This document shows positions 7,364 through 24,871 of a stretch of 45,422 nucleotides of DNA, piece by piece. Every line of letters starts with the position of its first letter. Within the stretch, counting starts at the first letter, position 1. Where the stretch lies: positions 1-45,422 of the forward strand of contig JADGBZ010000002.1 of assembly GCA_015231175.1 (NCBI GenBank), written 5' to 3'. This stretch comes from Magnetococcales bacterium (GTDB lineage: Bacteria; Pseudomonadota; Magnetococcia; Magnetococcales; DC0425bin3). A program made the translations under genes and the position numbers. Below the pieces are notes generated by a model. That model searched no databases, was not told the origin of the DNA, and saw only the letters and a list, made by a program, of their open reading frames with translations.

Positions 7364-10300
7364 TCAGACGAAGCCATTGGGCAGGATTTTGCTGACCTCG
7401 GCTGGTGTTCCGGCGGCGCGCAGGTAACCCCCTTCCATGTAGAGAACCAGGTCGGCGATCTTCAGGTGGCTGGGGCGATGGGTCACGATGAAGACTGTGC
7501 TTTTGCCGCGCAGCTCGTTGACGGCTTCCAGAAAGAGTCGTTCACTCTCCGCATCCAGATTGTTGCCCGGTTCGTCATAGAGCATGATCGCCTGGCTTTT
7601 GAGGTAGACCCGAGCCAAAGAGAGGCGTTGCCTGAATCCTGATGAGAGCGTTCCGTCGCCGCTTTCCTGCAACCGGGTGTCGAACCCCTTGGGAAGCCGC
7701 TTGATTTCATCCAGGAGACCGGCCCGCGCCGTGGCTGCCTCAAGTTCGGCATCGCTGGCGTCCGGGTTGACCAGGCGCAGGTTTTGCGCCACTGTGCCGA
7801 AAAAGATGTCGCAGGTTTGTGGCAGGTAGCTGATGCCCTGGCGCAACTCCAGGGGATCGGTCTGCCGGATGTCGCCATTGTCGATCAGAATGCTGCCGGC
7901 CTGGGGTGTGTACAATCCCAGGATCATTTTGAGGAGGGTCGATTTTCCGGAACCATTGGCCCCGATCACGGTAACCACCGATCCGGCTGGGACGCGAAAA
8001 GAGACGCCAATCAAGGCGGGGTCGGCATCGTTGCGATAGCGGAACGAGACGCGGTTGAAAACCACCTCGCCCTGAAAGGTGCGTCCCATCGGGGCGATGG
8101 CGCCGATCTCCCGTTCTCCCTTGATCTCCATCAGGCGATCTGTTTGGGTCATGCTGTTGAAAACTTGAACCATTTTAGCGATGCCCAAAAAGGTGGTTTG
8201 CACCGGACCAAAGATTCTCCACGTCAGCAGCATGGCGGCCATCACGGCGCCACTGGTGAGTTTTCCCTCCATGACACCCTGGGCGGTCATGCTCATGACT
8301 CCCAAGGCGGCTGCCATGGTGATGGTTTGAGACATGGTGCCGAGCAGGGCTGTGACCTGGTTAAGCCGAAAGTTGGCCAACGTGGCCTTGCCGGATAGGT
8401 CACGATAGCGGTCATACCAGACCTCCTGGGCATGCACACCCTGGATGGTCGGCAACCGGTGCAGAGCCTCGGTCAGAAAGGCCTGCCGGTGGCTGCCAAG
8501 GCGGGTTGAAAGACTGGAACGGACGCGCATGACGGGAAAGATGATGAACCCGACCAGCACGAGACCCAGGATCAACAGCAGCATGAAGAAGATGACCGAA
8601 GGATTGATGATCCCCAGCACGATCATGTAGAACAAGGATGTAGGGGCGTCGTAGTAGAGATAGGCCAGAGGTCCGGTCAACATCTCCCGGATCACTTCCA
8701 GGGTGCGGATGCGGGCCACCTGCACTCCGACCGAGACCCTCTCCGTATAGGCGGCTGGCAGGGCCAGGATCCGGTCCAGGATGCCGCTGCTCAGGGTGCG
8801 TTCCGCCTTGGAGCCGATGTAGGCCATGAGCCGAACCCGTTGAACGCGAACGGCCACATCGACCAGCAATGCCAGCAACAAACCCACCAGCAAGACCAGT
8901 GCCATGGATTTGGCGCCGCTGGGGATGATCTGCCCATAGACCGCCATCACGAAGAGGGGGGTCATGGAGCCCATGATATTGCCGAGGATGGTGATGCCCA
9001 TGATGGTCCAGATCAGGGGCTGAAAACGTTGCAACTGGCTGCGTACCCAACTGCCGATCGTGATGGCTTCGGCGCCAGGCAGGGAGAAGAGGTAGGCGCG
9101 CCCTGCGCCAAGATGGTGCACGACCTTTCTTTCGCCATCGTCGCCATCGATCACCTCGGTGGCGCCACTCTCGGGGCGCCCCAGGGCGACCACCACACGA
9201 CCTTTGTTTGAAACGAACAAAAACGGCATCAGCCGCGGATCGATGCTTTCCAGTTTGCCGCGTGCCTCCCGGTAAACATGGTGCAGGTTGGCCATGATGG
9301 AGCAAAAATTTGTCAGATCGAGCTTTTCGGAGAGGTGGGGAACCGATTCGGCCAGTTGACGCGCCGTTCCTTTCCAGCTCATGGCCGTCAATAAACCTTT
9401 CAGGCAGCGGGAAAAGGGGGTCTGCACATGCATCTGGTCCAGAAACAGCTGCCATTGTTGCTCCTGGGAGAGGGAGCGGCGTTGTTCCAGCAAGGCCAGA
9501 GCGTCAGCGTGTTTTGTCTGGGGCAAGGTTTCCTCTGGACCCTGGCCCGGATCAACCACGGGATGGGCGACAGGTTTTGCCAAGGTCGGTGAGGGCTTTT
9601 CCACCCGGAAGGCATCCATCAAATCTTCCAGGAGGTGCAACGTGCCCCCTTGCAGGCGAAAAACCCGATCCGCCATGCGCAGCAGGGAGGGGCGTTGGGA
9701 GATCAGGATGATCGAACACTCCCCCTTCATGTTTTCCAGGCAGGTCCGCAGGAGATTGTCTCCGGCGGAGTCGATGGCCATGTTGGCTTCGTCGAAGAGC
9801 AGGATTTTGGGTTCTCGCGCCAGAATACGGGCGATGACGATGCGTTGTTGGACCCCGGCTGGCAACGTATCCTGGGCGCCGTCACCCACCACGGTGTGGT
9901 ACCCTTTGGGCATGCGCGCCACCACGGCATCGAGTCCCAAACGGGCAGCCATGGTCAATGCCACGGATTGACGGGTATCGTCGAACATGGTCAGATTTTG
10001 CAAAATCGTCCCATTGAACAGCGTCCCTTTTTGGGGGATGTAGCCAATTTGTGCGGAGAGATGTTGGGGCAACAAATGGACTTCGCGGCTATCGATCCGG
10101 ACGGTTCCCTGTGTGGGCTGCGCCGCGCCGGTGATCAGTTTCAGGAAGGTGCTTTTACCGCTGCCACTGTCGCCGACAATGCCGATGCACTCCCCAGGGT
10201 CGATGGTCAGGGAGATGTCGGTCAGAATGGCTGTTTTGTGTACGGGGGGCGGGGGTTCGCCAGGTTTTTGCCATCCGGTATTTTTGGTGACCTCGAAGGA

Positions 10301-11314
10301 GATGTTTTGCAGTTGAATGGCGCCGCTCAACGGCTCCCCGGAGGCGTGTTCGGCCAGATTTTCCCGTTGCGGAATGGTGAGCAGGGCATTGACCTCTTGG
10401 CGAGCCATGCGAATGGCCTGCAACCGCGTCCATCCGGCGACCAGTGCCTGGATGGGTTGCAACGATCTTCCGGCGAGCATGGTGCAGGCTGCCAGTCCAC
10501 CGGTTGTCAAATCTCCGTCTATGACCTGGATGGCCCCGAAGGCGATCACCATGGCCGTCATCCCCTGGGCCGTGAACGAGGAGAACGCCGGCATGATGGC
10601 GCCCAGAAAGATCAGGTCGTAAGTTTGACGCAATCCTTTGATCAGCAACATTTCATGGCGCCGCAACAGGAGTGATTCCATGGCCAGGGCCTTGACGGAA
10701 TGAATGCGGTCCAGGGTCTCGGTGATAAAGCTGTAACGCCGCTGCTTTTGATCCATATCCTGCTTCAGCGTTTTTTTCAGTGAGAAGCCAACGTAGGCGG
10801 AAGGCACGCTGATCAGAATGAGGGCGCCCAGGGGCACCAGGGCCAGGGGGCCTGCCAGCAGGTAGACGAGAAACAGGTACATGACCAGAAAGGGCAGGTC
10901 GAACAAGGCCATCAGCGCCTGTCCGGAATAGAGCTCACCGACCTGGTTGATGGCGTTCATCCCCTCCATGAATTTGCTGCCATCCGCTTTCTCGATCTCC
11001 TCGGGTGCGGCGTAGAGCAGGCGCCGGAACGAGTTGCAACTGACCTGATGCTCAAACCGGGCGCCCATCCAGCCCATATGATAGGCCCGTACCGAGCGCA
11101 AGGCCGCCTCCACCACCAGGGCAACCAGCACCCCGAGCACCAACAGGGAGAGGGTCTGCGTGGCATGATTGGGCAGGATGCGGTTGTAGACCTGGATCAG
11201 AGCCAACGGGACCAACAGGCCCAACAAGTTGATGATGAACGATGTCACTCCTGGTATCCACAGTCCGGAAAACGACCCCAACTTGATCGTGTCCTCCTGG
11301 ATGGCTTTCTTCAT
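7364..11314 (-). CDS. Single-chain double ABC exporter (two TMD-NBD units, type I secretion-like)
   Basis: About 1316 residues: TMD1-NBD1, a C39-peptidase-like domain without catalytic residues, then TMD2-NBD2. Type I secretion ABC proteins are usually 550-720 residues and act as homodimers; here both halves are in one chain. Walker A boxes are GDSGSGKST (encoded near 10150-10190) and GANGSGKST (near 7935-7970). Both signature motifs deviate from LSGGQ: LPAGV in NBD1 and LSSGF in NBD2. NBD1 also has glutamine in place of the H-loop histidine (ISQRPS), while NBD2 keeps it (VTHRPS). Both Walker B glutamates are present. The frame stays open to 11524, but the extra 70 residues have poor codon structure and no good ribosome site; the ATG at 11314 is preferred, with 11422 as another option. 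Confidence 0.9.
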   Translation of the reverse strand: MKKAIQEDTIKLGSFSGLWIPGVTSFIINLLGLLVPLALIQVYNRILPNHATQTLSLLVLGVLVALVVEAALRSVRAYHMGWMGARFEHQVSCNSFRRLLYAAPEEIEKADGSKFMEGMNAINQVGELYSGQALMALFDLPFLVMYLFLVYLLAGPLALVPLGALILISVPSAYVGFSLKKTLKQDMDQKQRRYSFITETLDRIHSVKALAMESLLLRRHEMLLIKGLRQTYDLIFLGAIMPAFSSFTAQGMTAMVIAFGAIQVIDGDLTTGGLAACTMLAGRSLQPIQALVAGWTRLQAIRMARQEVNALLTIPQRENLAEHASGEPLSGAIQLQNISFEVTKNTGWQKPGEPPPPVHKTAILTDISLTIDPGECIGIVGDSGSGKSTFLKLITGAAQPTQGTVRIDSREVHLLPQHLSAQIGYIPQKGTLFNGTILQNLTMFDDTRQSVALTMAARLGLDAVVARMPKGYHTVVGDGAQDTLPAGVQQRIVIARILAREPKILLFDEANMAIDSAGDNLLRTCLENMKGECSIILISQRPSLLRMADRVFRLQGGTLHLLEDLMDAFRVEKPSPTLAKPVAHPVVDPGQGPEETLPQTKHADALALLEQRRSLSQEQQWQLFLDQMHVQTPFSRCLKGLLTAMSWKGTARQLAESVPHLSEKLDLTNFCSIMANLHHVYREARGKLESIDPRLMPFLFVSNKGRVVVALGRPESGATEVIDGDDGERKVVHHLGAGRAYLFSLPGAEAITIGSWVRSQLQRFQPLIWTIMGITILGNIMGSMTPLFVMAVYGQIIPSGAKSMALVLLVGLLLALLVDVAVRVQRVRLMAYIGSKAERTLSSGILDRILALPAAYTERVSVGVQVARIRTLEVIREMLTGPLAYLYYDAPTSLFYMIVLGIINPSVIFFMLLLILGLVLVGFIIFPVMRVRSSLSTRLGSHRQAFLTEALHRLPTIQGVHAQEVWYDRYRDLSGKATLANFRLNQVTALLGTMSQTITMAAALGVMSMTAQGVMEGKLTSGAVMAAMLLTWRIFGPVQTTFLGIAKMVQVFNSMTQTDRLMEIKGEREIGAIAPMGRTFQGEVVFNRVSFRYRNDADPALIGVSFRVPAGSVVTVIGANGSGKSTLLKMILGLYTPQAGSILIDNGDIRQTDPLELRQGISYLPQTCDIFFGTVAQNLRLVNPDASDAELEAATARAGLLDEIKRLPKGFDTRLQESGDGTLSSGFRQRLSLARVYLKSQAIMLYDEPGNNLDAESERLFLEAVNELRGKSTVFIVTHRPSHLKIADLVLYMEGGYLRAAGTPAEVSKILPNGFV

Positions 11315-11540
11315 TTCTTCACAAACTCCGCGTCTGGTTGCATCCGCCCTTGACAGGCCCCGCGCAAAAAAGGTCCGTATGGCGCTATCTTCTAAACCAT
11401 ATGTGGCTTCGGAGCCAGCCATCCCAGAGCCCGGTTCGTTGTCGGGTGCTGAGTGGCTACCAAAAAACCATGCACCGGCGGGAGCGAATGCAGCTTGTAT
11501 GCCGTTGCCGTAACTCTTCCTCACCTTTTTAAAAAGGGCT

Positions 11541-11679: not shown

Positions 11680-14600
11680 TTATCTCGGTTCGACCGCCAA
11701 CGCCGCTGGACTCAAATAATCCCGTATATTCACTGCATCCTGCTGACTGGCTGGCAGGTAGAGATTGGCGTAGGTTCGATAAACGCCGGAGGTGAGGAAG
11801 AGGTCGAAAAGATCGCTGTCAAGATGCTGGTCCTTGCGCATGAAGCTCATGATGCGCAGGGCCTGGTTCAAGGTTTTGGGGGGTTTGTAGGGGCGGTCCG
11901 CTGCGGTCAGGGCTTCAAAGACATCGGCAATGGCCAGCATGCGAGCTTGCACGCTCATCTCGTCCCGGTGCAGGCCACACGGATAGCCCGTTCCCACCAT
12001 GGTTTCGTGGTGTGAGCCGGCCATCTCCACGGCGCTGCGCATGGTTTTGGGCAGGGAGAGGTGTTCCAGCATGAGGATGGTCTGGATGACATGTTCGTTG
12101 ATCTTGAAACGTTCTTCGTTTGTCAGAGTGCCCCGGCTGATGGAAAGGTTGTAGATTTCGCCGTAATGGTACAGGTGCTCCGGAACCACGACCTTGAATT
12201 GTGGATGGGCGGCATAGGGGGTGGGATCAGCCCGGGGGACGATGTGTTCCGGTTTGTCGGCCAACAGCGTCTCGACCGCAGGCAGGGGGGACTCCGGAAT
12301 ATTTTGTACATGCAGTTGCTCGGGAGGCGAGAGACCGAGACGGTCACTGAAGTGACGTTGCCAGGTTCGCCCGGCAATTTGTTTCAGGCGGGTGATGCTT
12401 TCCGGATCCATGAATTCGCCGCCCTGATTGCACTGGGCCACGAAGGCAAACTCCTCGCGCAGAGTGGCCAGAGAGGCATCCAGGGTTTCGGGTAGAGGAT
12501 TGGAATCACCCAGGCGGGCCCAATGTTCCTGCTGGGCCTGGATGATGGCATCCCGGTAGAGCACCTCGAAACGCATCCGAATTTCATGGATGCGATTGTA
12601 GACGGTCTCCAGTTTGGTGGCTTTGTCCACCACATATTCGGGAGTGGTGACCTTGCCGCAATCGTGCAACCAGCCGGCCAGGTGAAAGGCCTTCCACGCA
12701 TCTTTTTCCATGTTGAAGGATGCAAACGGCCCGGTGTCGCAACGGCAGGCGGCTTCCGCCAGCAGACGGGCCAGTTCAGGAACCCGGGCGCAATGGCCCC
12801 CGGTATAGGGGGATTTGGCGTCGATACTGGTTGCCAAGACCTTGATGATCGACTCGAACAGTTTTTCCTGGGCTTCGATGAGGCGCAGGTTGTGCAGTGC
12901 CACGGCTCCCTTGGAGGCCAGGGACTCGATGAAACCCACCAGATCGTCGGCAAAGGAAACAACCTTTTCACGGGTTGGATCCAGGGCATTGATGAGTTGC
13001 AAAGCCCCCAGAATGTCCCCTTCGCGTGTCATCAGGGGAACCACCAGCATGGATTGAGTGTGGTAGTTGGTGGCCGCATCGAACTTCAATGTTCCGGAGA
13101 CATCGAACGGGCCGGTATCGCCGTAGACATCGTCCAGCCGCACACTCTTGCCGGTCAGGGCGACATGGACCGAGACATAATGGTGGTTGGGCTTTCCGGT
13201 GGTGGGGTCATGGAGGGGCAGGGCCGACACCGGAAGCGTGTCGGTACTGGTCCGGTGGGAAAACTGGAGGGTATTCTCATCGGTCAGGAGAAAGAGAGTG
13301 GCTCTGTCGGCTGGGGCGATCTCCCGTCCTCCCTCAAGAATGCGACGCAGCAGGCGATCGATGTCATGTTCCATGGCGAGGGCGATACCCAGCTCCACCA
13401 ACTTTTCGAGCTTGTTTTGACTGATGACCAACTCGCGGGTCCGTTCTTGAACCTTTTCTTCCAAAACCTCGGCAACGCGCTCCCACTCAAGACGTGCCAC
13501 TTGTTCGAGGCGTTTGGCCAGTTCTGTCTGACGAAAGGCCCTGTAACCCAGGAAGAGAAGCAACAGAAAATTGGCGCCGACCGGAAAGACCGGATCCAGC
13601 AGCAGGGTGTGAACATGGAACGCATAGGCCCCGCCAGCGCCGCACAACGTGGACAAGGAGAGAAACAGGATGGTTGTGAAGCGAACGCCCATTTTGGAGA
13701 CCAACAGAATGAGGAGCAGCCCCATGACCGTCGTCAGGAGTTGCTCCAGCCACAGGGCATATCCTGGCCTGTCGAGGGCGATGCCCTGGAGAATGGTCTC
13801 AATCGCCTGGGCCTGGATTTCGGCGCCGGAAATTTGACCTTGCATCGGGATGGCGTGGATATCCTGGAGGCCAGCCGCCGACGAACCGACCAGAACCAGG
13901 CGTCCCTGGAACAGGTCGGGGGCCAGTTTGCCCTCCAGCAGGTCACCGACCGAAAAGTAACGGCCTGGATTGACAGGTCCATAATGGATCCAAACCTGCC
14001 CCTGGGAATCTGTGGGAATGGGTGCCCCTCCAACCAGAATACCCTTGATTTTCTGGTTTTGGTCCACAATGGCGACCGTGCCCCGGCGACCCGAGGCCAC
14101 GCGCAGCGCTTCGAGCGTGAAGGTGGGCCGGATGCTCTGGGCCATGCCCACCATCAGAGGAACCCGTCGGACGATGCCGTCCGATTCAGGGTTGACATAC
14201 AACAGGCCGTTTCCGGCTGCCGCCTTCTCGAAAGGGGCATCATTGGGAATCAAACCATCCACCTCCGATAAAAAGGGGAGGGCATCTCCGCCCATGGAGG
14301 CGATATTGTTTGTTTGCAGGGATGCCTGGGTTGCCGTCGTGGTGGAACCGTAACGCACCATTTGCCCCAGAATGACGGGCGCTCCAAGCATGGCATGCGC
14401 GAAGGCGGCATCGGTATCCGGCAGGGCGTACAGCTCCTGTCGGCTTTTCTCGCTCAAGGTTTTGAGATCGTCGGCCATGACATGGGGAGAGTGCAGATCC
14501 CGACCAGGAAAAACAAAATTAAAGCCAATGCCGGCGGCTCCCATCTCCTTGAGACGATTGACAATGTCCGCCAGCCGGGTCCGGGGCCATGGCCATTGAC

Positions 14601-14880
14601 CAAAACGATCCATGGAGCGTTCGTCGATGTCCAGGATGACCACCTGGGTCACCTCGGACGTGCGGGGATAAAAACGCTGATAGGTGTCGAAGACGCGGAG
14701 ACGCAACTCCGCCAGGGGTTTGGGATCGACCCCCTGGAGGAGGACGAGAAACCCCAGGAACAGCAACGTCACCACGCGCATCCGCCAGGCCCACGGACCA
14801 CAGCTGGCGGACCCCTTGTTCGAGGCGTCAGAGGAAGAAGCCACCTGTTGTTGCAAATGTGGCTCCATCTTCTTGTTCAT
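11680..14880 (-). CDS. CHASE2-GAF-HD-GYP protein (putative c-di-GMP phosphodiesterase)
   Basis: 1066 residues. An N-terminal membrane segment lies at about 33-50, a periplasmic CHASE2 sensor at about 55-365 (LDIDERSMDRFG, WPWPR), three further membrane segments at about 380-450, a coiled coil, a GAF domain at about 500-665, and an HD-GYP domain from about 680 to the end. HD is at 739-740 (HDCGKV), a second histidine lies in NEHV, HHE at 957-959 and GYP at 965-967. HD-GYP domains cleave cyclic di-GMP. About 190 residues separate the HD pair from the NEHV histidine, far more than the roughly 30 in compact members, so an insertion sits inside the catalytic domain. It starts 6 bases behind the OmpA gene with little ribosome site of its own, which suggests translational coupling. 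Confidence 0.92.
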   Translation of the reverse strand: MNKKMEPHLQQQVASSSDASNKGSASCGPWAWRMRVVTLLFLGFLVLLQGVDPKPLAELRLRVFDTYQRFYPRTSEVTQVVILDIDERSMDRFGQWPWPRTRLADIVNRLKEMGAAGIGFNFVFPGRDLHSPHVMADDLKTLSEKSRQELYALPDTDAAFAHAMLGAPVILGQMVRYGSTTTATQASLQTNNIASMGGDALPFLSEVDGLIPNDAPFEKAAAGNGLLYVNPESDGIVRRVPLMVGMAQSIRPTFTLEALRVASGRRGTVAIVDQNQKIKGILVGGAPIPTDSQGQVWIHYGPVNPGRYFSVGDLLEGKLAPDLFQGRLVLVGSSAAGLQDIHAIPMQGQISGAEIQAQAIETILQGIALDRPGYALWLEQLLTTVMGLLLILLVSKMGVRFTTILFLSLSTLCGAGGAYAFHVHTLLLDPVFPVGANFLLLLFLGYRAFRQTELAKRLEQVARLEWERVAEVLEEKVQERTRELVISQNKLEKLVELGIALAMEHDIDRLLRRILEGGREIAPADRATLFLLTDENTLQFSHRTSTDTLPVSALPLHDPTTGKPNHHYVSVHVALTGKSVRLDDVYGDTGPFDVSGTLKFDAATNYHTQSMLVVPLMTREGDILGALQLINALDPTREKVVSFADDLVGFIESLASKGAVALHNLRLIEAQEKLFESIIKVLATSIDAKSPYTGGHCARVPELARLLAEAACRCDTGPFASFNMEKDAWKAFHLAGWLHDCGKVTTPEYVVDKATKLETVYNRIHEIRMRFEVLYRDAIIQAQQEHWARLGDSNPLPETLDASLATLREEFAFVAQCNQGGEFMDPESITRLKQIAGRTWQRHFSDRLGLSPPEQLHVQNIPESPLPAVETLLADKPEHIVPRADPTPYAAHPQFKVVVPEHLYHYGEIYNLSISRGTLTNEERFKINEHVIQTILMLEHLSLPKTMRSAVEMAGSHHETMVGTGYPCGLHRDEMSVQARMLAIADVFEALTAADRPYKPPKTLNQALRIMSFMRKDQHLDSDLFDLFLTSGVYRTYANLYLPASQQDAVNIRDYLSPAALAVEPR

Positions 14881-14886
14881 ACGCCG

Positions 14887-15489
14887 TCAGCGGATCGACA
14901 CCTCGACGCGCCGGTTGCGCGGCTCAGGGAGTTCGTCCGCTGTTTGCACCAGGAGGTTTTTCTCGCCGTGGGAGGTAACTTCGATGGCGGAGGCGGGAAT
15001 GCCAATGCCCAGGAGCAGCCCGTGCACCATTTTGGCGCGATCCAGGGCCAGCCGATGGTTGGCATCTTCGGCGCCGACCGTGTCGGTATGGCCAACGACG
15101 GCAACTTCGGGGGATACCCAGCTCTTCAGGGTGGAGAGAATTTCCGGCAATTTGGCCTGGGACGAGGGCACCAGGGCGGTGCCACCAGTCTGGTAGTAAA
15201 GGATAAACTTGACCGGTTTGCGTGATTTGGCCGCCATGGCGGCGGCGTAACGCGCTTCAATCTCGTTATCGGGCACTACATTTGGCGCGGCAGGTTCTTC
15301 CGTCGCTTTGCTGATCCGGGTTCCTTCGTTGGCCTTGTCGAGGGTCACGGTACCGGATGTCGTCTCAACGATGGCCTTGCCCACATGGCCATCATCGTCG
15401 GGTAGCAGCACGATCTGTTCCGGTTTTGCACAGCCAAAGAGAAAGGCTAAAGCCAACATGCCCATCGACAAACGTGACATGGATCTCAT
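14887..15489 (-). CDS. OmpA-family outer-membrane lipoprotein
   Basis: A 200-residue lipoprotein with lipobox LFGC (cysteine at residue 20) and a C-terminal OmpA-like peptidoglycan-binding domain: VAVVGHTDTVGAED, NHRLALDRA and EPRNRRVEV. It should be anchored in the outer membrane and bind peptidoglycan. The start at 15489 is chosen because GGAG lies about 11 bases upstream and the signal peptide begins there. It is the middle gene of the fecR-ompA-CHASE2/HD-GYP operon, 37 bases behind fecR and 6 ahead of the HD-GYP gene. FecR, OmpA and CHASE2 proteins often sit together; here they probably form one envelope-sensing unit. Confidence 0.92.
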   Translation of the reverse strand: MRSMSRLSMGMLALAFLFGCAKPEQIVLLPDDDGHVGKAIVETTSGTVTLDKANEGTRISKATEEPAAPNVVPDNEIEARYAAAMAAKSRKPVKFILYYQTGGTALVPSSQAKLPEILSTLKSWVSPEVAVVGHTDTVGAEDANHRLALDRAKMVHGLLLGIGIPASAIEVTSHGEKNLLVQTADELPEPRNRRVEVSIR

Positions 15490-15526
15490 TGCAAAAGTCT
15501 CCAACTTGCGGACAGAGGGTGTGGAA

Positions 15527-15967
15527 TCAAGGCTCGGGAACATGGACGAGTATGGACGTTCCCCGCACTCCGATGGACCCCAGCGGGGTTGTCAGTCGGA
15601 TGCGTTTGGGATCCAGTTTACCAATCTCGCCGGTGTTGAATGTCAAGGTGCCCGCCGCCATATGACCCGAGAGCGCCAGACGCTGGGCGTGCGGATCGAA
15701 GGCAAACTCCTCGACGACGAAACGGCTGTTCGGACCCAGGGAAAAACGAGTATTGTCCTTCATGGTGACACCCACCGCGCCATCGGCGCCGGTTTCCAGG
15801 ACATCCTTGGCATCCAGCGGTGTTCCCACTTTGGCGGGACTTTTTTCCCCAAGGTGCTGGATAAAAACGTCCCCAGAAGCCGTCTTGACCATGCCATCCG
15901 AGGCTTGCACCGGCAAAATCAGGCCCATTGACCCACAAAAAAGGATTGAGCGAACAACTCGTTTCAT
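15527..15967 (-). CDS. Periplasmic FecR-domain protein
   Basis: A 146-residue exported protein with a signal peptide ending near VQA (residue 22) and a FecR domain: GDVFIQHLG, PLDAKDVLETGADGAVGV, LGPNSRFVVEEF and TPLGSIGVRGT. It lacks the N-terminal cytosolic anti-sigma part and membrane segment of classic FecR, so it is not a sigma regulator of the FecIR kind but a free periplasmic FecR-fold protein. The start at 15967 has GAGGAG 7 bases upstream. It is the first gene of the operon with ompA and the CHASE2/HD-GYP gene, and it is divergent from the tolC-like operon. Confidence 0.9.
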   Translation of the reverse strand: MKRVVRSILFCGSMGLILPVQASDGMVKTASGDVFIQHLGEKSPAKVGTPLDAKDVLETGADGAVGVTMKDNTRFSLGPNSRFVVEEFAFDPHAQRLALSGHMAAGTLTFNTGEIGKLDPKRIRLTTPLGSIGVRGTSILVHVPEP

Positions 15968-16252
15968 GCAGCGCTCCTCACGGTTACACGTCCGAACCAT
16001 CTGAAACCCCACGACCTGAAACCTTGCGACGTTGACCCCACCCAGAGTGACAGAATCCTCTGGATCCTAACCAACTTCATGTTGTTTGTCCACAAGAATC
16101 CATGGCTCCCATAAAGCGGAGTATCGCTGCAACGTCCTGCTTCGTGTCAGGCCGGGTTGGCCGATGGGGCTCCAGAAAATTGGCAGATGTTTTGCGTGTC
16201 TGGCAAGGGTTGGCTTGGTTTGCTCTCTTCGGTTGATTGTTGGTTGGTGCAG
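15968..16252. promoter_or_regulatory. Divergent intergenic region between fecR and tolC-like operons
   Basis: These 285 bases separate two operons read in opposite directions and must hold both promoters unless either starts further inside. I see no strong sigma70 pair. A short direct repeat, CCATCTGAAACCCC / GACCTGAAACCTT, lies at about 15999-16025. The shared region makes co-regulation of the two operons plausible but does not show it. Confidence 0.4.
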
Positions 16253-18277
16253 ATGTCCGTTGCCAAAACATCTCTTCCCCTCGTGGTGCGTTTGTTGATC
16301 GGGTCGGCCCTGCTGATGGTGTCGGCTGGGTGTGTCGTGAAACCCCAGGCCTTGACCGAGGCCGAGCAAATGCAGCTTGTCCAGGCGGACCAGACCAAAA
16401 TGTTCCAGAATCAGGATCCCATCCCGGATACCCTGACCATCTACGATGCCATGGCGCGTGCCATCAAATACAACCTCGACCACCGCCTCAAGCTGATGGA
16501 AGGGTTGCTTTCCAGCAACCAGCTTGACCTGACTCGGGCCGAGCTGCTCCCCAACCTGGTGACCTCGGCTGGGTATTCGAGCCGTTCCAATGCAGCGGCC
16601 TCCAGCAGTCAATCGGTGCAGAACGGCACCCTCTCCCTGGAATCCTCCACCTCCCAGAATCGGGATCAGGAACAGATCGATCTCTCCCTGACCTGGAATG
16701 TTTTGGATTTTGGTGTCAGTTATTTTCGTGCCCGGCAGGAGGCTGATCGCTTGCTGATCACCGAGGAGCGGCGGCGCAAGGTGATCCAAAATTTGATCCG
16801 GGAGATTCGTTATGCCTTTTGGCGGGCCTGGGGGGCGCAGAGCCTTGCCCAGGAGATCGGCGTAACCTTGAAGGAGGCGGACGCCGGTCTGAGCGCCTTG
16901 CAACGCATCGAAGATGAGCGCCTGCGCCCCCCTCTGGAGATTCTGCGCTATCGGCGCTCCATCCTGGAGGCGGTGGTGCAGTTGGAAAAACTTCGGGATG
17001 ATTTGGCCATGGCCCATGTCGAGTTGGCGCCATTGATGAACATGCCCCCGGGGGTTTCCTACAAGTTGGCCGCCGAAGAGCCGGTGTTGACTGTGTTTCC
17101 GACCGACCTGCCGCTGGAGGCCCTGGAGCGGCTTGCCTTGCGCAACCGTCCCGAGCTTCGCGAGGAGAACTACCAGGCCCGCATCAGCGTCGAAGAGACT
17201 CGCAAGACCCTGGCCCGGCTTTTTCCGGGTCTGGAGATGAGCCTGACCGGCAACCATGACAGCAACACCTTCCTGGTCAACCAGAGTTGGGCTGAGGCGG
17301 GTTTGCATATTTCGTGGAACCTGATCAATCTGGCGACAGCCCCCAGGCGGCTGGAGTGGGCCAAGGCGCAGGAGTCGGTCACCGACACGCGGCGCCTGGC
17401 TCTGCACATGGCCATATTGAGCCAGATTCATATTGCCTGGCGGCAGTATCTGACGGCGTTGCAACAATATCGTCGGGCCATGGATCTCAGCACCATCGAC
17501 CGGGAGATTCTGCGCCATGTGACCACGCAACAGGATCAGGCCGCCGAGGGGCGCCTGGAGCAGGTGCGCAACCGGGTGAAGGTCGTCCTGACCCGTTTGC
17601 AACAGCATCAGGCTTTGGCCCAATTGGAGAACGCCCTGGGGCAATTGCAGGTGGCCGTTGGTGCCGATCCCATTCCTCCGAACGTGAAGGAGGGTGATCT
17701 GGGTGCCTTGAGCCGGGAGATCGAAAAAAATCTGGCCGAATGGGACCAGGCGCTGGTGCAAGGGCAGATACCGGCCAGGCCGGATATGCCAGGAAAGGTG
17801 CCCGTCGCGCCACAGGGTTCCGACACGGCGCCCGGCATGGGTGACCACGCAGTGGTTGGGGCGGATGCCCCCGACCGGCCCGGTGATGGGGCTGATACGC
17901 CGGTCCAACCCGTTGCCGCGACCGACACATCCGGGCAAACCGGTTTCCCCGGCGCCATGCAAGGCGTGTCCGACATGCACAGCAAGCCGGTCGATGCATG
18001 GCCTCTGACCGGTTCTTCCTCCGTGACTGCGAGCCGCATGTTGCCTGGGTCTCCCGCCAGGCCCGCGAAGGTGCAGCCACAGGCGGCAGGTTTTTGGCGG
18101 GCGGTCACGATCGAACGGGTTCGACAGCTTTTGAAAAAAGGGGGGGACCGCCCTCCTGCGGGAACGTCGACCAGGGAAATGCCGCGCCTCGTTCCAGAGA
18201 GGGAGGGGCGGGCGCCCTTTCTTTCGGAGGTCCGCTTCGTTATGCTGAGCGGGGTGCAACGCCCTCCTCCCGACTGA
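16253..18277 (+). CDS. TolC-family outer-membrane efflux lipoprotein with long C-terminal tail
   Basis: A 674-residue outer-membrane factor. A lipoprotein signal ends in SAGC (cysteine at residue 27), followed by two TolC/OEP repeats of long helices (about 60-280 and 300-500; ENYQARISVEETRKTLARL, WRQYLTALQQYRRA). TolC proteins form trimeric channels across the outer membrane. Beyond about residue 520 comes a Pro/Gly/Asp-rich low-complexity tail of about 150 residues, absent from typical 420-500 residue members. The start at 16253 begins the signal peptide, though its ribosome site is weak. It is the first gene of a plus-strand operon with two HlyD-type adaptors and an M50/HlyD fusion; it probably provides their outer-membrane exit. 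Confidence 0.9.
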   Translation: MSVAKTSLPLVVRLLIGSALLMVSAGCVVKPQALTEAEQMQLVQADQTKMFQNQDPIPDTLTIYDAMARAIKYNLDHRLKLMEGLLSSNQLDLTRAELLPNLVTSAGYSSRSNAAASSSQSVQNGTLSLESSTSQNRDQEQIDLSLTWNVLDFGVSYFRARQEADRLLITEERRRKVIQNLIREIRYAFWRAWGAQSLAQEIGVTLKEADAGLSALQRIEDERLRPPLEILRYRRSILEAVVQLEKLRDDLAMAHVELAPLMNMPPGVSYKLAAEEPVLTVFPTDLPLEALERLALRNRPELREENYQARISVEETRKTLARLFPGLEMSLTGNHDSNTFLVNQSWAEAGLHISWNLINLATAPRRLEWAKAQESVTDTRRLALHMAILSQIHIAWRQYLTALQQYRRAMDLSTIDREILRHVTTQQDQAAEGRLEQVRNRVKVVLTRLQQHQALAQLENALGQLQVAVGADPIPPNVKEGDLGALSREIEKNLAEWDQALVQGQIPARPDMPGKVPVAPQGSDTAPGMGDHAVVGADAPDRPGDGADTPVQPVAATDTSGQTGFPGAMQGVSDMHSKPVDAWPLTGSSSVTASRMLPGSPARPAKVQPQAAGFWRAVTIERVRQLLKKGGDRPPAGTSTREMPRLVPEREGRAPFLSEVRFVMLSGVQRPPPD

Positions 18278-18283
18278 GGAGGG
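18262..18283 (+). other. Hairpin spanning the tolC-like stop codon
   Basis: CCCTCCTC (18262-18269) pairs perfectly with GAGGAGGG (18276-18283) around a 6-base loop, and the TGA stop is at 18275-18277. No T-run follows, so it is not a typical terminator. It could slow 3' decay or lower read-through into the HlyD gene 68 bases further on. Confidence 0.45.
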
Positions 18284-18345
18284 GGGTGGTCAGGTCTTGT
18301 GTCTTCTCCGGTTGCCCCTTGATCTTCATCAGTGAAAGAGATCCA

Positions 18346-19236
18346 ATGCTCCGCGATGCTAGGCGAACCCCTGTTCGGTTTCCCGTGTCTTTGGGATGGG
18401 TGGTTTGTTGCCTACTGCTGGCGCCGACCTCCTGGGGTTGGGCGGCTCTCTGCGATGCTCCCGCATCCCGCTCTTCGGAGGCGCCACTTTCCGTTGCGCC
18501 GCCACAGAAGAGCGCCGAAGCTCCGCAAAGACCTGACGCCGCCAGGGTCGGTGAGGAGAACGAAGAGATCCGGGCGCAACTGACGCCCCGACAACGGACG
18601 GTGATCGGCGCCGAGATCCCGGCCAAGATTGTACGTATCAACGTTGCCGAAGGGGAGGCATTTACCCAGGGAAAGGTGCTGGTGGAGTTTGACTGCACCC
18701 TCTTTCAGACCCGTTTGCGCAAGGCCGTGGCTGAAGTCGATGCAGCCAGCAAGCGGGTCGAGGTCCACTCGCGCCTGATGGAGCTGGGGTCGCTCTCCCC
18801 CCTGGAGTTGGAGCTGGATCAACTGGAGCTGGCGCGCAACGTCGCCGAAGTGGAGACGCAACGCGCCATGGTGCATCGCTGCCGTATCTATGCCCCTTTT
18901 GCCGGACATGTCATTTCCCTCCAGGCCCAACCTTTTCAGTATGTGACCGAGGGGCAGCATCTGCTGGACATTTTGAACAATGCCGACCTGGAACTGGCCA
19001 TGATCGTCCCCTCCCGCTGGCTCCCCCGGTTGACGCCTGGCGCAGCGTTTACAGTCCATATCGATGAGACCGGTCGTGATTACCCGGCCCGGGTGGTGCG
19101 TCCTGTTCCCCAGGTGGATGCCGTCAGCCAATCGATCAAGGTGATTGCCCGGTTGGATGGCCACTTTCCCGAACTGATTTCGGGCATGAACGGGCGCATT
19201 CGTTTCCCAGCCGACATGGGGGTGACCAAACCGTGA
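18346..19236 (+). CDS. Short HlyD/RND-type periplasmic adaptor
   Basis: A 296-residue exported adaptor. A signal segment lies at residues 12-33 (hydrophobic, followed by LCDAPASR). It has lipoyl half-domains (VIGAEIPAKIVRINVAEGEAF and YAPFAGHVISLQAQ), a short helical hairpin, and a barrel domain (LELAMIVPSRWL). The helical hairpin is only about 70 residues, much shorter than in HlyD of type I systems and closer to RND/MacA-like adaptors. The start ATG at 18346 has an AAAGAG site. The longer open frame back to 17998 overlaps the tolC-like gene and is not supported. Its last bases overlap the next gene's GTG by four (GTGA), indicating translational coupling. Confidence 0.88.
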   Translation: MLRDARRTPVRFPVSLGWVVCCLLLAPTSWGWAALCDAPASRSSEAPLSVAPPQKSAEAPQRPDAARVGEENEEIRAQLTPRQRTVIGAEIPAKIVRINVAEGEAFTQGKVLVEFDCTLFQTRLRKAVAEVDAASKRVEVHSRLMELGSLSPLELELDQLELARNVAEVETQRAMVHRCRIYAPFAGHVISLQAQPFQYVTEGQHLLDILNNADLELAMIVPSRWLPRLTPGAAFTVHIDETGRDYPARVVRPVPQVDAVSQSIKVIARLDGHFPELISGMNGRIRFPADMGVTKP

Positions 19237-20606
19237 CCGAGGCCCAGCAAAAGGGAGCGGTGGACTCTTTGCAAGGTCGGCTGCGGAGCCTGGGGTCTCT
19301 CCTTGAACTGGGCAAGATGGCCCGTGACGCTCCCGATGACGAGGCCCTGGGTTTTGTGCTGGTCAACGAGACCCATCTGCTGACCCCCTACCGTCAGGCC
19401 ATTTTGTGGCGGCGCATCTCACCCGGTCGTGGTGAGGTGGTGGCCATTTCTGGACTTTTCCGCGTCGATCCCCAGACGCCATTTGTGGCCTGGTCAAGCC
19501 GGCTTTGCGCCACTTTGGACCGGGATGCCGATGCTGCCCAGGTGCGGGTCATTGCCCCGGATACCCTGCCGGAAGCAGACCAGGCGGCCTGGGCCGAATG
19601 GCTGCCGGCGGAACTTCTCTGGTTGCCTTTGAGCGTCTCCTCCGGTGCGCGTCCGGGGGGGTTGTTGTTGGCCCGGGAGGCGCCTTGGAGTCCGGTCGAG
19701 CAGGAGTTGTTGGCCGTTCTGGCCGAGAGTTATGCCCATGCCTGGCTGGCTTTGCACCCGCATCATCGTGTGCAGCTGGGGCCGTTTCCTGACATACGCC
19801 GCCTTCCCCTCCTGGTTTTGGCGGCTGTTGTGGTTGGGGCGCTCGCCCTTCCTGTCGATCTTTCGGTCCTGGCGCCGGCTGAAGTCGTTCCCATCGATCC
19901 TGTCGTGGTGCGGTCCCCCCAGGATGGTGTCATCGACCAGTTTTTGGTGCGCCCCAACCGCATGGTCAAGAGTGGTGATATTCTGTTCACCCTGGACGAC
20001 ACCAACCTGCGTAACCGCCAGGATGTGGCGCGCACCGAAATGGAGTCGGCCCAGCAGGAGTATCGTCAGGAGGCGCAAAGGGCGGTCCTTGATGCGGATA
20101 GCAAGACCCGTTTGGCATTACTCCAGGGGCGTGTCGAGCAACGCCGGACCGAAGTGACCCATGTCGAGAACCTGCTGGAGCGCACCCGTGTGCGGGCCAG
20201 CCGGGACGGCATGGCCCTGTTTGAGGATGTCAACGATTGGTTGGGGCGTCCTGTCGCGGTGGGGGAGCGCGTTCTGACCCTGGCCAATCCGGCGGCCACG
20301 GAGCTGGAGATCCACCTCCCCGTTCCTGACGCTGTTCGCCTGGAACCCAACGCCGAGGTCAAATTTTTCAGCAACAATCAACCTGAGCAACCGTTACCCG
20401 CGCATCTTGTCGAAGCGGCCTTTCGTCCGACCTCCGCTCCGGAGGGGTTCTTGATCTATCGGCTGACGGCACGTTTTCCCAATGAGTTGACACCGCCGCG
20501 CATAGGTTTGCGTGGCACGGCCCGGGTTGTCGGGCAGGAGGTGTCCCTTTTCCACTTCCTGCTGCGCCGTCCCCTGGCAGCCCTGCGGCGCATGACCGGG
20601 ATTTGA
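19233..20606 (+). CDS. Membrane HlyD adaptor with N-terminal GAF-like domain
   Basis: 457 residues. A cytosolic N-terminal region (about 15-180; LLELGKMARDAPDDEALGFVLV, QAILWRR, LPLSVSSG, LLLAREAPWSPVEQELLAVLAE) has the pattern of a GAF domain. One membrane segment lies at about 190-209, followed by a HlyD adaptor with lipoyl halves VVRSPQDGVIDQFLVRPNRMVKSGD and RVRASRDGMALF. The GAF part could bind a small ligand in the cytosol and report it to the periplasmic adaptor; this is inference. It starts with GTG overlapping the preceding stop and ends 4 bases before the M50 gene, so the four genes are tightly coupled. Confidence 0.85.
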   Translation: MTEAQQKGAVDSLQGRLRSLGSLLELGKMARDAPDDEALGFVLVNETHLLTPYRQAILWRRISPGRGEVVAISGLFRVDPQTPFVAWSSRLCATLDRDADAAQVRVIAPDTLPEADQAAWAEWLPAELLWLPLSVSSGARPGGLLLAREAPWSPVEQELLAVLAESYAHAWLALHPHHRVQLGPFPDIRRLPLLVLAAVVVGALALPVDLSVLAPAEVVPIDPVVVRSPQDGVIDQFLVRPNRMVKSGDILFTLDDTNLRNRQDVARTEMESAQQEYRQEAQRAVLDADSKTRLALLQGRVEQRRTEVTHVENLLERTRVRASRDGMALFEDVNDWLGRPVAVGERVLTLANPAATELEIHLPVPDAVRLEPNAEVKFFSNNQPEQPLPAHLVEAAFRPTSAPEGFLIYRLTARFPNELTPPRIGLRGTARVVGQEVSLFHFLLRRPLAALRRMTGI

Positions 20607-20610
20607 CGCC

Positions 20611-22719
20611 ATGACCACCCTCCCACCTTTGCGGGAGGAGCTCCACCTCTTTCCTGGCCCGCGCACCCGCGCCCATGCCCCGACATGGACCATTCACGAT
20701 CCGGCCAGCAACCACTATTTTCGCATTGGTTGGCGTGAGTTTGAGATTCTCTCCCGTTGGAACATGGGCGGGGCCGAACAGATTGCAGCACGCACGTCAC
20801 TGGAAACGCCCCTGCATGTGCGGGCGGAACAGGTTTTGGAGGTGGCCCGGTTTTTGACGGCCCACAATCTGGTGCGCATCCAGGGCAGATCCGATTTGGC
20901 CCGTTTGCGGCGACAATCCGCAGGGACAAAGCAGGGTTGGTTGCAGGTTTTATTTCACGCCTACCTTTTTTTCCGGATACCTTTGTTGCGACCGGACCGT
21001 TTTCTGGCCGCCATTCTGCCCTCCATGGCATGGGCTTTCACGCGGGGATTCTGGCTTTTCATGCTGGTCGTGACCCTGACCGGCCTGTTTCTGGCAGGCC
21101 GCCAGTGGGAGCTTTTTTTTTCCACCCTGACGAGAAGCTTTTCCGTGGAGGGCGCCATGGCTCTGGCCTTGGCTATTACGGTATCCAAGGTTGTACACGA
21201 ATTTGGGCACATACTGGCTGCCAAACGGTATGGTTGCTCTGTTCCATCCGTTGGGGTGGCCTTTCTGGTGATGTGGCCGGTGCTCTATTCGGATGTGACG
21301 GGGGTGTGGAAACTTCCGGAGCGAAAGCAACGGCTCGCTGTCGGCGTGGCCGGGATGGCCGCCGAGCTGGTTTTGGCCTCCTGGGCCACCTTGCTGTGGA
21401 ATTTTCTGCCGGATGGACCTGCCCGCAGTGCGGCCTTTTTTTTGGCCACCAGCGGTTGGACCCTGACCTTGATGGTCAACCTCAGCCCCTTTTTGCGTTT
21501 CGATGCCTATTACATGCTCTCGGACTGGATCGAGGTACAAAATCTCCATGCCCGCTCCGGGACTTTGGGACGTTGGTGGCTGCGCGAGCTGCTGTTGGGG
21601 TTGGGGGAACCGGATCCCGAACCCGACTTGCACCCGATCCGTTCATTTTTGATCCTTTTCGCGTATCTTTCCTGGATCTACCGGCTGATTTTGTTCTTGA
21701 GCATCGCCCTGCTGGTTTACTACTATTTTTTCAAACTCTTGGGAGTGGCTCTGATGTTGGTGGAAGTGGGTTGGTTCATTGTGCGGCCCGTGTTTTTGGA
21801 GTTGGGGGTGTGGTGGCGGTTGCGCCAGCGTTTGCACATCAACCTGCATACCTTGTTGACTGCTTTGGCCGTTGGCGGATTGATCTTTTTTCTTCTGCAC
21901 CCCTGGCAGCATCGCATCGAGGTTCCGGCCTTGTTGCGGCCCGAGCATCCTCCCGGCTTGTATGCACCTGTTCCAGCCCGTTTGGATGCCTGGGAGGTGA
22001 CCCGGGGGGATGTTGTCCGACCGGGCCAGGTTCTGGCCCGACTCTCCTCGCCGGATCTTGCCCATGAGATCAGGCGGACACAGACGGAAATCACCCTGCT
22101 GCGTCAGCAACTCTCCCTGCATGCCATTCAGGTGGATCTGTTGGACCAGCGTCGGGATATTCGGCAAAAGTTGCATGCGCGCCTGGCGGAAAATCAGGGA
22201 TTCCTTCGCCAGCAGGGGCAACTTACCCTGGTGGCGTCTACAGCGGGTCAGGTTGTCCATCGTCTGGAGCATCTGCACCCTGGCGATTGGGTTGGCACCA
22301 ACGAGCCATTGTTGGAGTTGGCCCACTTTCACCGTTGGGTCATCGAGGCCTACGTGGAAGAGACGCGGCGCGACCAGATCCTGTTTGGCGGCGAAGCGAA
22401 ATTTTTTCCGGAAATCGGCGAGCTTCCCCCTGTGAGAGCAAGGGTGATGCGTGTCGAGGGGGCCAATGCCAAGCAGTTGCACCATCCCTGGCTGGGTTCG
22501 CATCTGGGTGGTGAGTTGCCTGCCAGGGCCAACCAGCAAGGCGAGGCCATACCCCTTACGGCGGTCTATCAGGTTCTTCTCGAACCCGTCGCCTTCCCCG
22601 ACCACGGCATGATCCATATCTTGCGCGGCACGGCGCACCTGCCTGGTGAACCCCTCAGCATTCTTGGCGCTCTGTATCGCACAGCCCACAGTGCTTTTGT
22701 GCGCGAGAGCGGGTTTTAG
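20611..22719 (+). CDS. PqqD-like / M50 site-2-type metalloprotease / HlyD adaptor fusion
   Basis: 702 residues. Residues about 25-95 resemble the PqqD winged-helix fold (WTIHDPASNHYFRIGWREFEILSRW), known in other systems for binding precursor peptides. Residues about 130-410 are multi-spanning membrane segments of an M50 protease, with zinc motif HEFGH at 196-200 and the distal ligand aspartate at 298 in NLSPFLRFDAYY. Residues about 430-640 form a HlyD-type adaptor with lipoyl halves (LYAPVPARLDAWEVTRGDVV; LVASTAGQVVHRLEHLHPGDW). The catalytic residues look intact. The protein may cleave a membrane-bound or peptide substrate and hand the product to the TolC-like channel; the role is inferred. 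It starts 4 bases behind the GAF/HlyD gene. Confidence 0.9.
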   Translation: MTTLPPLREELHLFPGPRTRAHAPTWTIHDPASNHYFRIGWREFEILSRWNMGGAEQIAARTSLETPLHVRAEQVLEVARFLTAHNLVRIQGRSDLARLRRQSAGTKQGWLQVLFHAYLFFRIPLLRPDRFLAAILPSMAWAFTRGFWLFMLVVTLTGLFLAGRQWELFFSTLTRSFSVEGAMALALAITVSKVVHEFGHILAAKRYGCSVPSVGVAFLVMWPVLYSDVTGVWKLPERKQRLAVGVAGMAAELVLASWATLLWNFLPDGPARSAAFFLATSGWTLTLMVNLSPFLRFDAYYMLSDWIEVQNLHARSGTLGRWWLRELLLGLGEPDPEPDLHPIRSFLILFAYLSWIYRLILFLSIALLVYYYFFKLLGVALMLVEVGWFIVRPVFLELGVWWRLRQRLHINLHTLLTALAVGGLIFFLLHPWQHRIEVPALLRPEHPPGLYAPVPARLDAWEVTRGDVVRPGQVLARLSSPDLAHEIRRTQTEITLLRQQLSLHAIQVDLLDQRRDIRQKLHARLAENQGFLRQQGQLTLVASTAGQVVHRLEHLHPGDWVGTNEPLLELAHFHRWVIEAYVEETRRDQILFGGEAKFFPEIGELPPVRARVMRVEGANAKQLHHPWLGSHLGGELPARANQQGEAIPLTAVYQVLLEPVAFPDHGMIHILRGTAHLPGEPLSILGALYRTAHSAFVRESGF

Positions 22720-22748
22720 GTTTATGTTTTGTTGACGAGTGGCCCAAA

Positions 22749-23813
22749 ATGATCCATCTATTCCGTCCTATCCTGATTGTTTTTTTTCTGGCATGGCCGA
22801 CACGGGCTGTTGCCGATCCGGCGACACCGGTGGGGGATCCACTCTGCCAGGCTGCTCCCATCCAGATGGCTGCGCTGCCGCAGTCCAAGGCCGGGTTGCT
22901 CGAACAAATCCTCAAGATGGATGAGCCTGACATGCAGATGCGGGGCAGGTTGGGCATTCTTGCGTTGGCGCCGGTGCAGGTGATGTTGCAATTGGATTAT
23001 TTTGCCGGGGATCCGCAGCGTATTGTGGACCTGGTCTCGCTTTGGACCCAATCTCCGGCGCTCAAGGGGATGCGGTTGCCCTTGCACCATGTACGGATGG
23101 AAGGGGTCACGGCATGGATGGTGGGCAAGGGGATCGATGTGCGGATCCAGCAGGTGGCTTTACCGGAGGGAAGCCTGCATGATATTCATTTTCAAGGGGA
23201 TGGCGGGAATCGTTGGGAGTTGGCCGCAGCAGATGGCGCGTTGCCCAGGATGCCGGAAGGTATTCCCGGCCTGCCGCCGTTGCACCATGTAAAATTTTCC
23301 ACCTTGCGCGCTTCGGGCAATCGGCACTGTCCGGGTCGCATGGGCATGCCCACCCTGGAGGTCGATGGGATCCAGGTCAGCGACCCGCTTCTGGAGGTGT
23401 TGGATAGCACGCCGGGCCGCGAGGTGTGGCAGATGTGGGTTGGCCGCATCGAGGCGCCGGTCACTTCCGGGCGACCCTCTGCCACGGCGGACCCTCTCCT
23501 GTTTTGGCTTCAGGAGGCCCGGGGGGTTTTGCGGCAACTGACCCACGCCGTTGGTGCGGAGGCGCCTGCGGACGACGCGCCTTGGGTTGTTGAGCAGGGG
23601 ACTCTCCATGTCGCCAGGCATGCGTCGCAGGTTGATGTGACCAACCTGCGTCTATCTGTCGGGAATATGCAGGTCCAGGGCCGTGCCAAAGTGGTGGAGC
23701 AACAACCCTCTGGATGGGTCATGGATCCCGATTTATTGCTGACAACCGATCAGACCACACAAAAGGCCTTTAAAAAGAGGTTGCGTTTGGGGCAAAGTCG
23801 GTCTGGTCATTGA
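22749..23813 (+). CDS. Secreted protein of unknown family, last gene of the TolC/HlyD/M50 operon
   Basis: 354 residues. A signal peptide ends near AVA-DP (residue 22). I recognise no family. The body is rich in short beta-like stretches, and two segments resemble each other (LPLHHVRMEGV near 118 and PPLHHVKFSTL near 178), which suggests an internal repeat. A later stretch (LRLSVGNMQVQGRAKVVE) recalls AsmA-like or lipid-carrier folds, but this is weak. It starts 29 bases behind the M50/HlyD gene and appears to belong to its operon, so it may be a periplasmic partner or a substrate. A dispersed repeat follows the stop. Confidence 0.75.
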   Translation: MIHLFRPILIVFFLAWPTRAVADPATPVGDPLCQAAPIQMAALPQSKAGLLEQILKMDEPDMQMRGRLGILALAPVQVMLQLDYFAGDPQRIVDLVSLWTQSPALKGMRLPLHHVRMEGVTAWMVGKGIDVRIQQVALPEGSLHDIHFQGDGGNRWELAAADGALPRMPEGIPGLPPLHHVKFSTLRASGNRHCPGRMGMPTLEVDGIQVSDPLLEVLDSTPGREVWQMWVGRIEAPVTSGRPSATADPLLFWLQEARGVLRQLTHAVGAEAPADDAPWVVEQGTLHVARHASQVDVTNLRLSVGNMQVQGRAKVVEQQPSGWVMDPDLLLTTDQTTQKAFKKRLRLGQSRSGH

Positions 23814-23989: not shown

Positions 23990-24871
23990 ATGATGGGTGC
24001 CAGGATGTCGGTCTCCCACAGGGGGATGGGATGGTTGTGGCGGGGGATCGCGGGTTTGACCCTCATGATTCTGGCCGGGTGTGCTTTCGTGCCGCTCAAA
24101 CGCCAGATTGGACAGGATTTATGGGAGTTCAGTATTGTCGCTGCGGATCGGACCGGCAATCAAGCGATGGAGAGAGAGCTGATCCTTCAGGCCACTGGCC
24201 AGTGTTTGAACTTTACGGTTCTCCAGAAGAGTTATGAAAAAAGGTTCAACCAGAAAAAATTGACAGCCCGCATGCAATGTTCCAACGGAAAGGGCACTTT
24301 CCGGACCGCTGCCGGAAAAGTCATCGAGGCCGGTCCCATGCATGCCCCGATAACCGGCAAAGGGGTCTACGAATTTGACAATGGCAATGTCTACGAGGGG
24401 GAGGTCGTGGACGGGAAGCTCCATGGCAGGGGGGTCTACAAATATCTCATCGGCAATGTTTACGAAGGGGAGTTTGTCAACGATAAACTCTCGGGGAAGG
24501 GCCTCCTCAAATTTGTCAACGGGGATGTCTATGAGGGGGATTTTGTCGACAACATCAGGACCGGAAAAGGTCATTGCACATTTGCCAACGGCAACGACTA
24601 TGTCGGGGATGTGGTCAATGGCCGGATAACGGGACAGGGTGTCTTTAAATTTGTCAATGGCCGGGTCTATGAAGGGCAGTTTGTCGATGGGCACCCGGTG
24701 ACAGTCTCCTCACCCGGGGATCTTCAACTCTGGAAAAGTGTTGGGACGGTCACGGAACAATTCATAGATGCCTACAATAAATCCAGGAGAGGCCAGGGGG
24801 GGGGCTGGTTCGGGAGATCCTCCTGGAGAGGTCGAGGCCGAAAGCGAGGTCGAGGCCGAAAGCATGGATGA
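23990..24871 (+). CDS. MORN-repeat lipoprotein with Arg/Gly/Lys-rich tail
   Basis: 293 residues. A lipoprotein signal ends in LAGC (about residue 31). Residues about 118-235 hold five MORN-type repeats of about 23 residues each (YEFDNGNVYEGEVVDGKLHG, and four similar). The C-terminus is strongly basic (GRGRKRGRGRKHG), encoded by a perfect 18-base tandem duplication. MORN repeats form beta-hairpin rods that act as scaffolds or membrane binders. AGGAGGG lies 6 bases before the ATG. The gene stands alone between a dispersed repeat and the convergent hydrolase, so context says little about its job. Confidence 0.88.
   Translation: MMGARMSVSHRGMGWLWRGIAGLTLMILAGCAFVPLKRQIGQDLWEFSIVAADRTGNQAMERELILQATGQCLNFTVLQKSYEKRFNQKKLTARMQCSNGKGTFRTAAGKVIEAGPMHAPITGKGVYEFDNGNVYEGEVVDGKLHGRGVYKYLIGNVYEGEFVNDKLSGKGLLKFVNGDVYEGDFVDNIRTGKGHCTFANGNDYVGDVVNGRITGQGVFKFVNGRVYEGQFVDGHPVTVSSPGDLQLWKSVGTVTEQFIDAYNKSRRGQGGGWFGRSSWRGRGRKRGRGRKHG
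24828..24863 (+). repeat. 18-base perfect tandem duplication in the MORN gene 3' end
   Basis: GAGGTCGAGGCCGAAAGC occurs twice in a row (24828-24845 and 24846-24863), and a decayed third copy follows (GAAGAGCCGAAAGATC). It encodes the RGRGRKRGRGRK tail, so the tail length could vary by slippage in steps of six residues. Confidence 0.9.

Follow-up and report, generated by a model that had tools for sequence, protein, structure and literature searches.

How might a bacterium export protein through a TolC-type channel when the operon for the channel and its adaptors holds no pump? The question is raised by an operon of a Magnetococcales bacterium, located in the stretch of 45,422 nucleotides analysed here (the window). 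We propose, with a probability of about 0.6, that the first four genes of the operon form a cassette dedicated to processing and exporting giant repeat proteins of the LEPR-XLL type, either surface proteins or secreted ones, with Sec-type energy and with no ABC, RND or MFS pump.

Gene content and recurrence of the cassette

Five co-directional open reading frames are arranged on the forward strand with gaps of 68, −4, 4 and 29 bases, and the coordinates agree in this respect with an earlier note on this DNA. The protein types given there (OEP, HlyD/RND_mfp, HlyD, M50 with HlyD, and a fifth protein with no family) are upheld by Pfam and NCBIfam. Core gene 1 (16253–18277, +) encodes an outer-membrane channel lipoprotein of the TolC/OEP type (Pfam OEP, E = 1e-28), which has a long tail at its C-terminus and the lipobox LLMVSAGC in its sequence. 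Core gene 2 (18346–19236, +) encodes a short periplasmic adaptor of the HlyD/RND_mfp type, which matches HlyD_3 and scores 97 bits with the NCBIfam RND_mfp model TIGR01730 (cut-off, 94.9). Core gene 3 (19233–20606, +) is assigned an HlyD adaptor (Pfam HlyD_3) that follows a cytosolic GAF-like domain and one TM helix, and core gene 4 (20611–22719, +) a PqqD-like N-terminal domain, an M50 membrane metalloprotease and an HlyD adaptor (Pfam Peptidase_M50 and HlyD_3). The fifth gene (22749–23813, +) encodes a secreted protein with no match in Pfam, NCBIfam or PHROG.

A homologue of the M50/HlyD protein was found in 40 of the 41 genomes searched inside the order Magnetococcales, and in 73 of the 299 genomes of a phylum sample, including 43 of the 269 outside the order. 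Using 127 loci of the window's kind, the genes for TolC, the short HlyD and the GAF-HlyD protein were all detected within 9 kb of the M50 gene in 81; many of the others lie on contigs that are short or truncated, and a few loci represent one place counted twice. In most of the complete loci, TolC-like homologues come before the genes for HlyD. The comparison among genomes indicates that the four genes are a recurring unit, which we call the type-1 cassette. Its range covers Alpha-, Beta- and Gammaproteobacteria, Desulfobacterota and Nitrospirota, and among the named genomes scanned, those with loci include Azospirillum, Pectobacterium, Chromobacterium, Variovorax, Burkholderia, Methylomonas, Nitrospira, Geobacteraceae and Desulfonema. 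The cassette is present in 24 of 5,426 complete E. coli genomes, and 21 of the 25 places are on plasmids. Small genes named 'tail fiber protein' are observed beside several cassettes (L033, L034 and L097).

The earlier note had taken all five genes as one export unit. This reading stands for the first four, which recur together, and fails for the secreted orphan, which is found only in the window genome and one congener (G002). The orphan is ruled out as a core part and is regarded as a lineage-specific add-on. A phage origin was also rejected, as phage records gave no match and no PHROG was found.

The nearest ABC transporter, a tandem exporter (7364–11524, −; Pfam 2x ABC_tran and 2x ABC_membrane), belongs to a separate divergent operon with its own HlyD adaptor (5993–7276, −; Pfam HlyD_3), as had been noted earlier; both are neighbours and not parts of the cassette. 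Between this operon and the cassette, FecR-like, OmpA-like and CHASE2-GAF-HD genes are divergent from the cassette (11680–16012). The orphan is followed by a MORN-repeat protein with a lipoprotein-like signal (23990–24871), which has no homologue in the loci searched. At 31238–34282, a chemotaxis receptor with a Cache sensor carries a hemerythrin domain at its C-terminus.

GAF-like, PqqD-like and M50 domains

The M50 active site is conserved, a point named by the earlier note as a test. According to the profile of 70 homologues, H196, E197 and H200 of the zinc-binding motif HEFGH (residues 196–200; 21196–21210, +) are invariant, and so are N290 and D298 of the second motif NLSPFLRFDA (residues 290–299; 21478–21507, +). 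At position 299, Gly occupies at least 90%; FDG is usual in the homologues, and FDA is found in the window genus. The HExxH motif and the downstream N..P....D motif, both placed in membrane helices by the profile and the model, are features of the site-2 type. With the daptide HExxH protease model NF041824, the M50/HlyD protein scores 146.9 bits, below the cut-off of 300 bits.

The GAF-like adaptor of the earlier note is borne out by homologues and models. Pfam does not call GAF in the window protein, and calls it in 10 of 51 homologues. The Pfam-positive GAF of the sister family described below can be aligned to the corresponding region of the window protein (hhalign E = 7e-31 for the whole protein). 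Another comparison, of A4 with A2, is not independent, since the window sequence is in both. In the AlphaFold model (mean pLDDT 94), an alpha/beta domain is followed by one TM helix and the HlyD part. The homologues and the models give good support to the predicted GAF domain in core gene 3.

For the PqqD domain the support is weak. The domain is not called in the window protein. Among 24 members of the N-terminal set, 3 match Pfam PqqD (best, 1.2e-7), and the sole match of the profile in the PDB is a weak one, TfuB1 (E = 0.46). The AlphaFold model of the M50/HlyD protein (pLDDT 91) shows the bbb-aaa order of PqqD in the N-terminal domain. These features weakly suggest a PqqD/RRE-like domain (20611–20880, +), the proposed reader of a substrate leader. 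In fold searches with both models, HlyD-type domains dominate, and no separate GAF or PqqD match is present among the matches listed.

LEPR-XLL giants as probable cargo

Annotated records show a giant protein with DUF4347, Ig-like, tandem-95, ELWxxDGT or VCBS features, encoded either by the gene that precedes TolC or within the cassette. The order giant, TolC, HlyD, GAF-HlyD and M50/HlyD is observed on annotated plasmids of Azospirillum, Burkholderia, Magnetospirillum, E. coli, Kosakonia, Variovorax and Niveispirillum, and the same order is also seen in unannotated named genomes. In most loci whose upstream flank is intact, the cassette borders on a giant, and some cassettes, such as L088, have no adjoining giant. 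The giant open frames found here have 2,000–16,000 residues, and the tandem-95 giant of Variovorax has about 16,240 aa. A relative with a single contig of 4.7 Mb has an open frame with DUF4347 that spans 14,920 residues (G013:C1:2731072).

The giants start with a basic segment and the motif LALEPRxMFDGA, usually followed by DUF4347. The motif overlaps the NCBIfam LEPR-XLL model, which matched in four of seven cases, one of them above the cut-off. With start codons chosen by rule, the N-termini have a median charge of +3 and a maximum 19-residue hydropathy below 1.4. As they are basic and of such low hydropathy, no ordinary signal peptide is evident.

Outside the order, DUF4347 is present in 45 of the 269 genomes, M50 in 43 and both in 30. 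DUF4347 is thus found in 30 of 43 M50-positive genomes against 15 of 226 others (Fisher p = 1e-18, for genomes that are not independent). A strict DNA pattern of the LEPR motif is less frequent and more closely tied to M50. It was found in 13 of the 269 genomes; all 13 are M50-positive, and each has a motif within 24 kb of an M50 gene. As a control, the reversed pattern gave 2 matches against about 65 for the forward pattern in the 299 genomes. Counted by family, M50 is present in all six of the families with LEPR (chance, 4e-4). Two genomes (G101 and G200) are positive with the strict LEPR pattern and negative for DUF4347, so that the LEPR motif rather than DUF4347 tracks the cassette.

A C-terminal segment, G[KR]PxLTxQL, is common among the giants adjoining the cassette, mostly 31–47 residues from the end. 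The regular expression matches 27 of 68 neighbouring giants and none of 1,185 internal tiles, with 0.035 expected in shuffles. A motif model at 8 bits or more matches 38 of the 68 and none of 1057 internal tiles, a result that is partly circular because about 23 of the matched giants trained the model. In the window, one ORF (43276–44688) reached 8.9 bits; its sequence reads as malonyl-CoA decarboxylase, and we regard the match as due to chance.

No LEPR motif is present inside the window. The window genome has a single strict LEPR match, in a giant with DUF4347 and tandem-95 features that is at least 1,771 residues long (G000:C108:3380) and runs off its contig; that contig is different from the window's. 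In another genome, G003, an intact giant has both the N- and C-terminal signals and is located on a contig other than that of the type-1 cassette. As the LEPR giant lies off the window's contig, we propose that the cargo of the window cassette is supplied in trans, as in G003. G002 has a type-1 cassette, and a clear LEPR giant was not found in it. Joining the window genome's contigs C108 and C86 into a single giant gene is unsupported, as the repeat types look different. Taken together, the comparative evidence is strong that LEPR-XLL giants are the probable cargo of the type-1 cassette.

In DUF4347 of the giants (L059:3548–4036, alignment A8), invariant His-Gly and Tyr-Gly-Cys motifs are located about 43 residues apart. 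Six of 16 DUF4347 members weakly match Peptidase_C80 (best, 0.0013). The sequence suggests that DUF4347 may be a caspase-like self-processing protease within the cargo. With the DUF4347 profile, one distant DUF4347 chain was observed in the PDB (9qpe_G), and matches to designed TIM barrels were rejected as a repeat-driven artefact.

Energy source and comparison with known systems

The earlier note had named a dedicated pump, found consistently in other genomes, as a test of its reading. No such pump was seen: an ABC ATPase is present in the examined stretch of 15 of the 127 type-1 loci, the window included, at scattered positions about 0.1 to 17 kb distant. It starts less than 500 bases 3' of M50 in two loci (L106 and L126). 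In five Magnetococcales loci, including the window, a T1SS-like ABC lies within about 10 kb of the cassette. In the annotated plasmid loci of Burkholderia, E. coli, Kosakonia and Magnetospirillum, ABC is absent from the operon. As judged by reading the window and annotated neighbours, no RND or MFS pump stands among the four core genes of the window or next to them.

A more distant sister cassette, whose M50/HlyD homologues are about 28% identical, has the arrangement giant, DUF3467, GAF-HlyD (~620 aa), M50/HlyD, SecA-like ATPase, HlyD and TolC. The SecA-like protein matches Pfam SecA_DEAD, P-loop_SecA and SecA_PP_bind. Its gene directly follows M50 on the 3' side in 22 of 25 sister loci, and the nucleotide loop GEGKT/S is present in 19. 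The loop is absent in three Magnetococcales copies (L210, L214 and that of the window genome, L058:3946–5811 on G000:C86). The sister cassette of Thalassospira adjoins a protein named LEPR-XLL by NCBI. A FecR gene and an adenylate cyclase gene are observed near the sister cassette of Methylosinus too. No SecA-like match was found in any type-1 locus, and a Sec-type motor for type 1 is an extrapolation by analogy with the sister cassettes.

The cassette might be an accessory of type I secretion, in which an ABC from elsewhere (perhaps 7364–11524) pumps and the cassette gives TolC, adaptors and protease. The double ABC and HlyD operon of the window has no adjoining TolC gene, and besides the window, four Magnetococcales loci and Phyllobacterium have a T1SS-like ABC close to the cassette. 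However, 112 of the 127 type-1 loci have no ABC ATPase in the stretch examined, the annotated plasmid loci consist of giant and cassette alone, and the sister cassettes recruited a SecA-like ATPase instead. We consider this explanation unlikely. The reading of the earlier note, in which the M50 membrane protein itself takes the pump's place and lets the cut product out through the channel, gated by GAF and without a separate motor, accords with the fusion of M50 and HlyD in one protein, the invariant active site and the lack of another motor candidate in type-1 cassettes. Against it, no energy coupling is known for an M50 protease, and a cargo of 1,000–16,000 residues requires a motor or a folding ratchet. 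The SecA-like ATPase added in the sister cassette argues for another energy source, and we hold this reading to be quite improbable.

PqqD-like domains read RiPP leaders, and among NCBIfam models, that of the daptide HExxH protease comes closest to the M50/HlyD protein (147 bits, short of the cut-off). Both facts would fit an exporter of small molecules or RiPP peptides, in which PqqD-like, M50 and HlyD parts would process a short peptide carrying modifications and the giants would be linked to it only incidentally. No RiPP maturation enzyme or short precursor is annotated beside the cassettes examined, however, and most loci with an intact upstream flank place a giant gene next to the cassette. 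There is very little chance that this explanation is correct. Sec-type energy is preferred over pumping by M50 mainly because the SecA-like gene follows M50 in the sister cassettes.

In the Sec-powered export of giants that we prefer, the PqqD-like domain of the M50 protein would bind the N-terminal leader (basic segment and LALEPRxMFDGA) at the inner membrane. Then the leader would be cut at the M50 site. The three HlyD-type domains, of which two are anchored in the inner membrane, would connect to the TolC-type channel and let the chain out. The C-terminal GKPxLTxQL may act as a second recognition or retention signal. A Sec-type motor would power export: the sister cassettes would use their dedicated SecA-like protein, and type 1 probably housekeeping SecA. 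That these parts amount to a new Gram-negative secretion class, in which a PqqD-like domain reads the LEPR-XLL leader, the fused M50 protease cuts it and a SecA-type motor drives ABC-free export via HlyD and TolC, is a tentative proposal, rather less likely than the cassette function itself.

Some of the largest bacterial proteins bear the LEPR-XLL/DUF4347 N-terminus, and no account of their exit was found in the open-access literature. The linkage names a candidate exporter and two cargo signals, and poses the motor question in genetically tractable hosts (Azospirillum and Magnetospirillum). If the proposal is true, TolC-dependent protein export would have an ABC-free route, an undescribed secretion pathway with its likely cargo named, and proteins with PqqD-like and M50 parts would gain a role beyond peptide natural products. 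In the open-access papers found, no link of DUF4347 or LEPR-XLL to export was seen. A description of the cassette was not found in the open-access literature.

Type I secretion (HlyB-HlyD-TolC, and LapBCE for giant adhesins) resembles the cassette in its HlyD adaptors, TolC-type channel, giant repeat cargo and terminal signal. The HlyD adaptor and the TolC channel are present here, whereas a dedicated ABC exporter in the operon is absent; the cassette has three adaptor domains, M50 and PqqD-like parts and an N-terminal LEPR motif on the cargo. As for the uncleaved C-terminal signal of type I, the C-terminal motif, a putative signal, occurs in 38 of the 68 giants. The pump gene that RND/MFS tripartite systems carry in the operon is lacking in the window. 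Accessory Sec (SecA2/SecY2), which serves serine-rich-repeat adhesins of Gram-positive bacteria, is similar to the sister cassette only, where a SecA-like ATPase stands beside a giant repeat protein; such an ATPase is in 22 of 25 sister loci and in none of type 1, including the window. The present systems differ from it in being Gram-negative, in having HlyD/TolC and M50, and in showing no SecY2. RiPP leader handling (daptide HExxH; YydH/LiaK) shares a PqqD-like domain and an M50-type HExxH membrane protease with weak sequence relation, whereas the cassette protein is below the NCBIfam cut-offs, is fused to HlyD and faces giant, not short-peptide, cargo. The apparent cargo carries both LEPR-XLL (NF012209) and DUF4347 (Pfam PF14252). 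The cassette parts are of known kinds, and their combination does not fit the definition of type I secretion or, in the case of type 1, that of accessory Sec.
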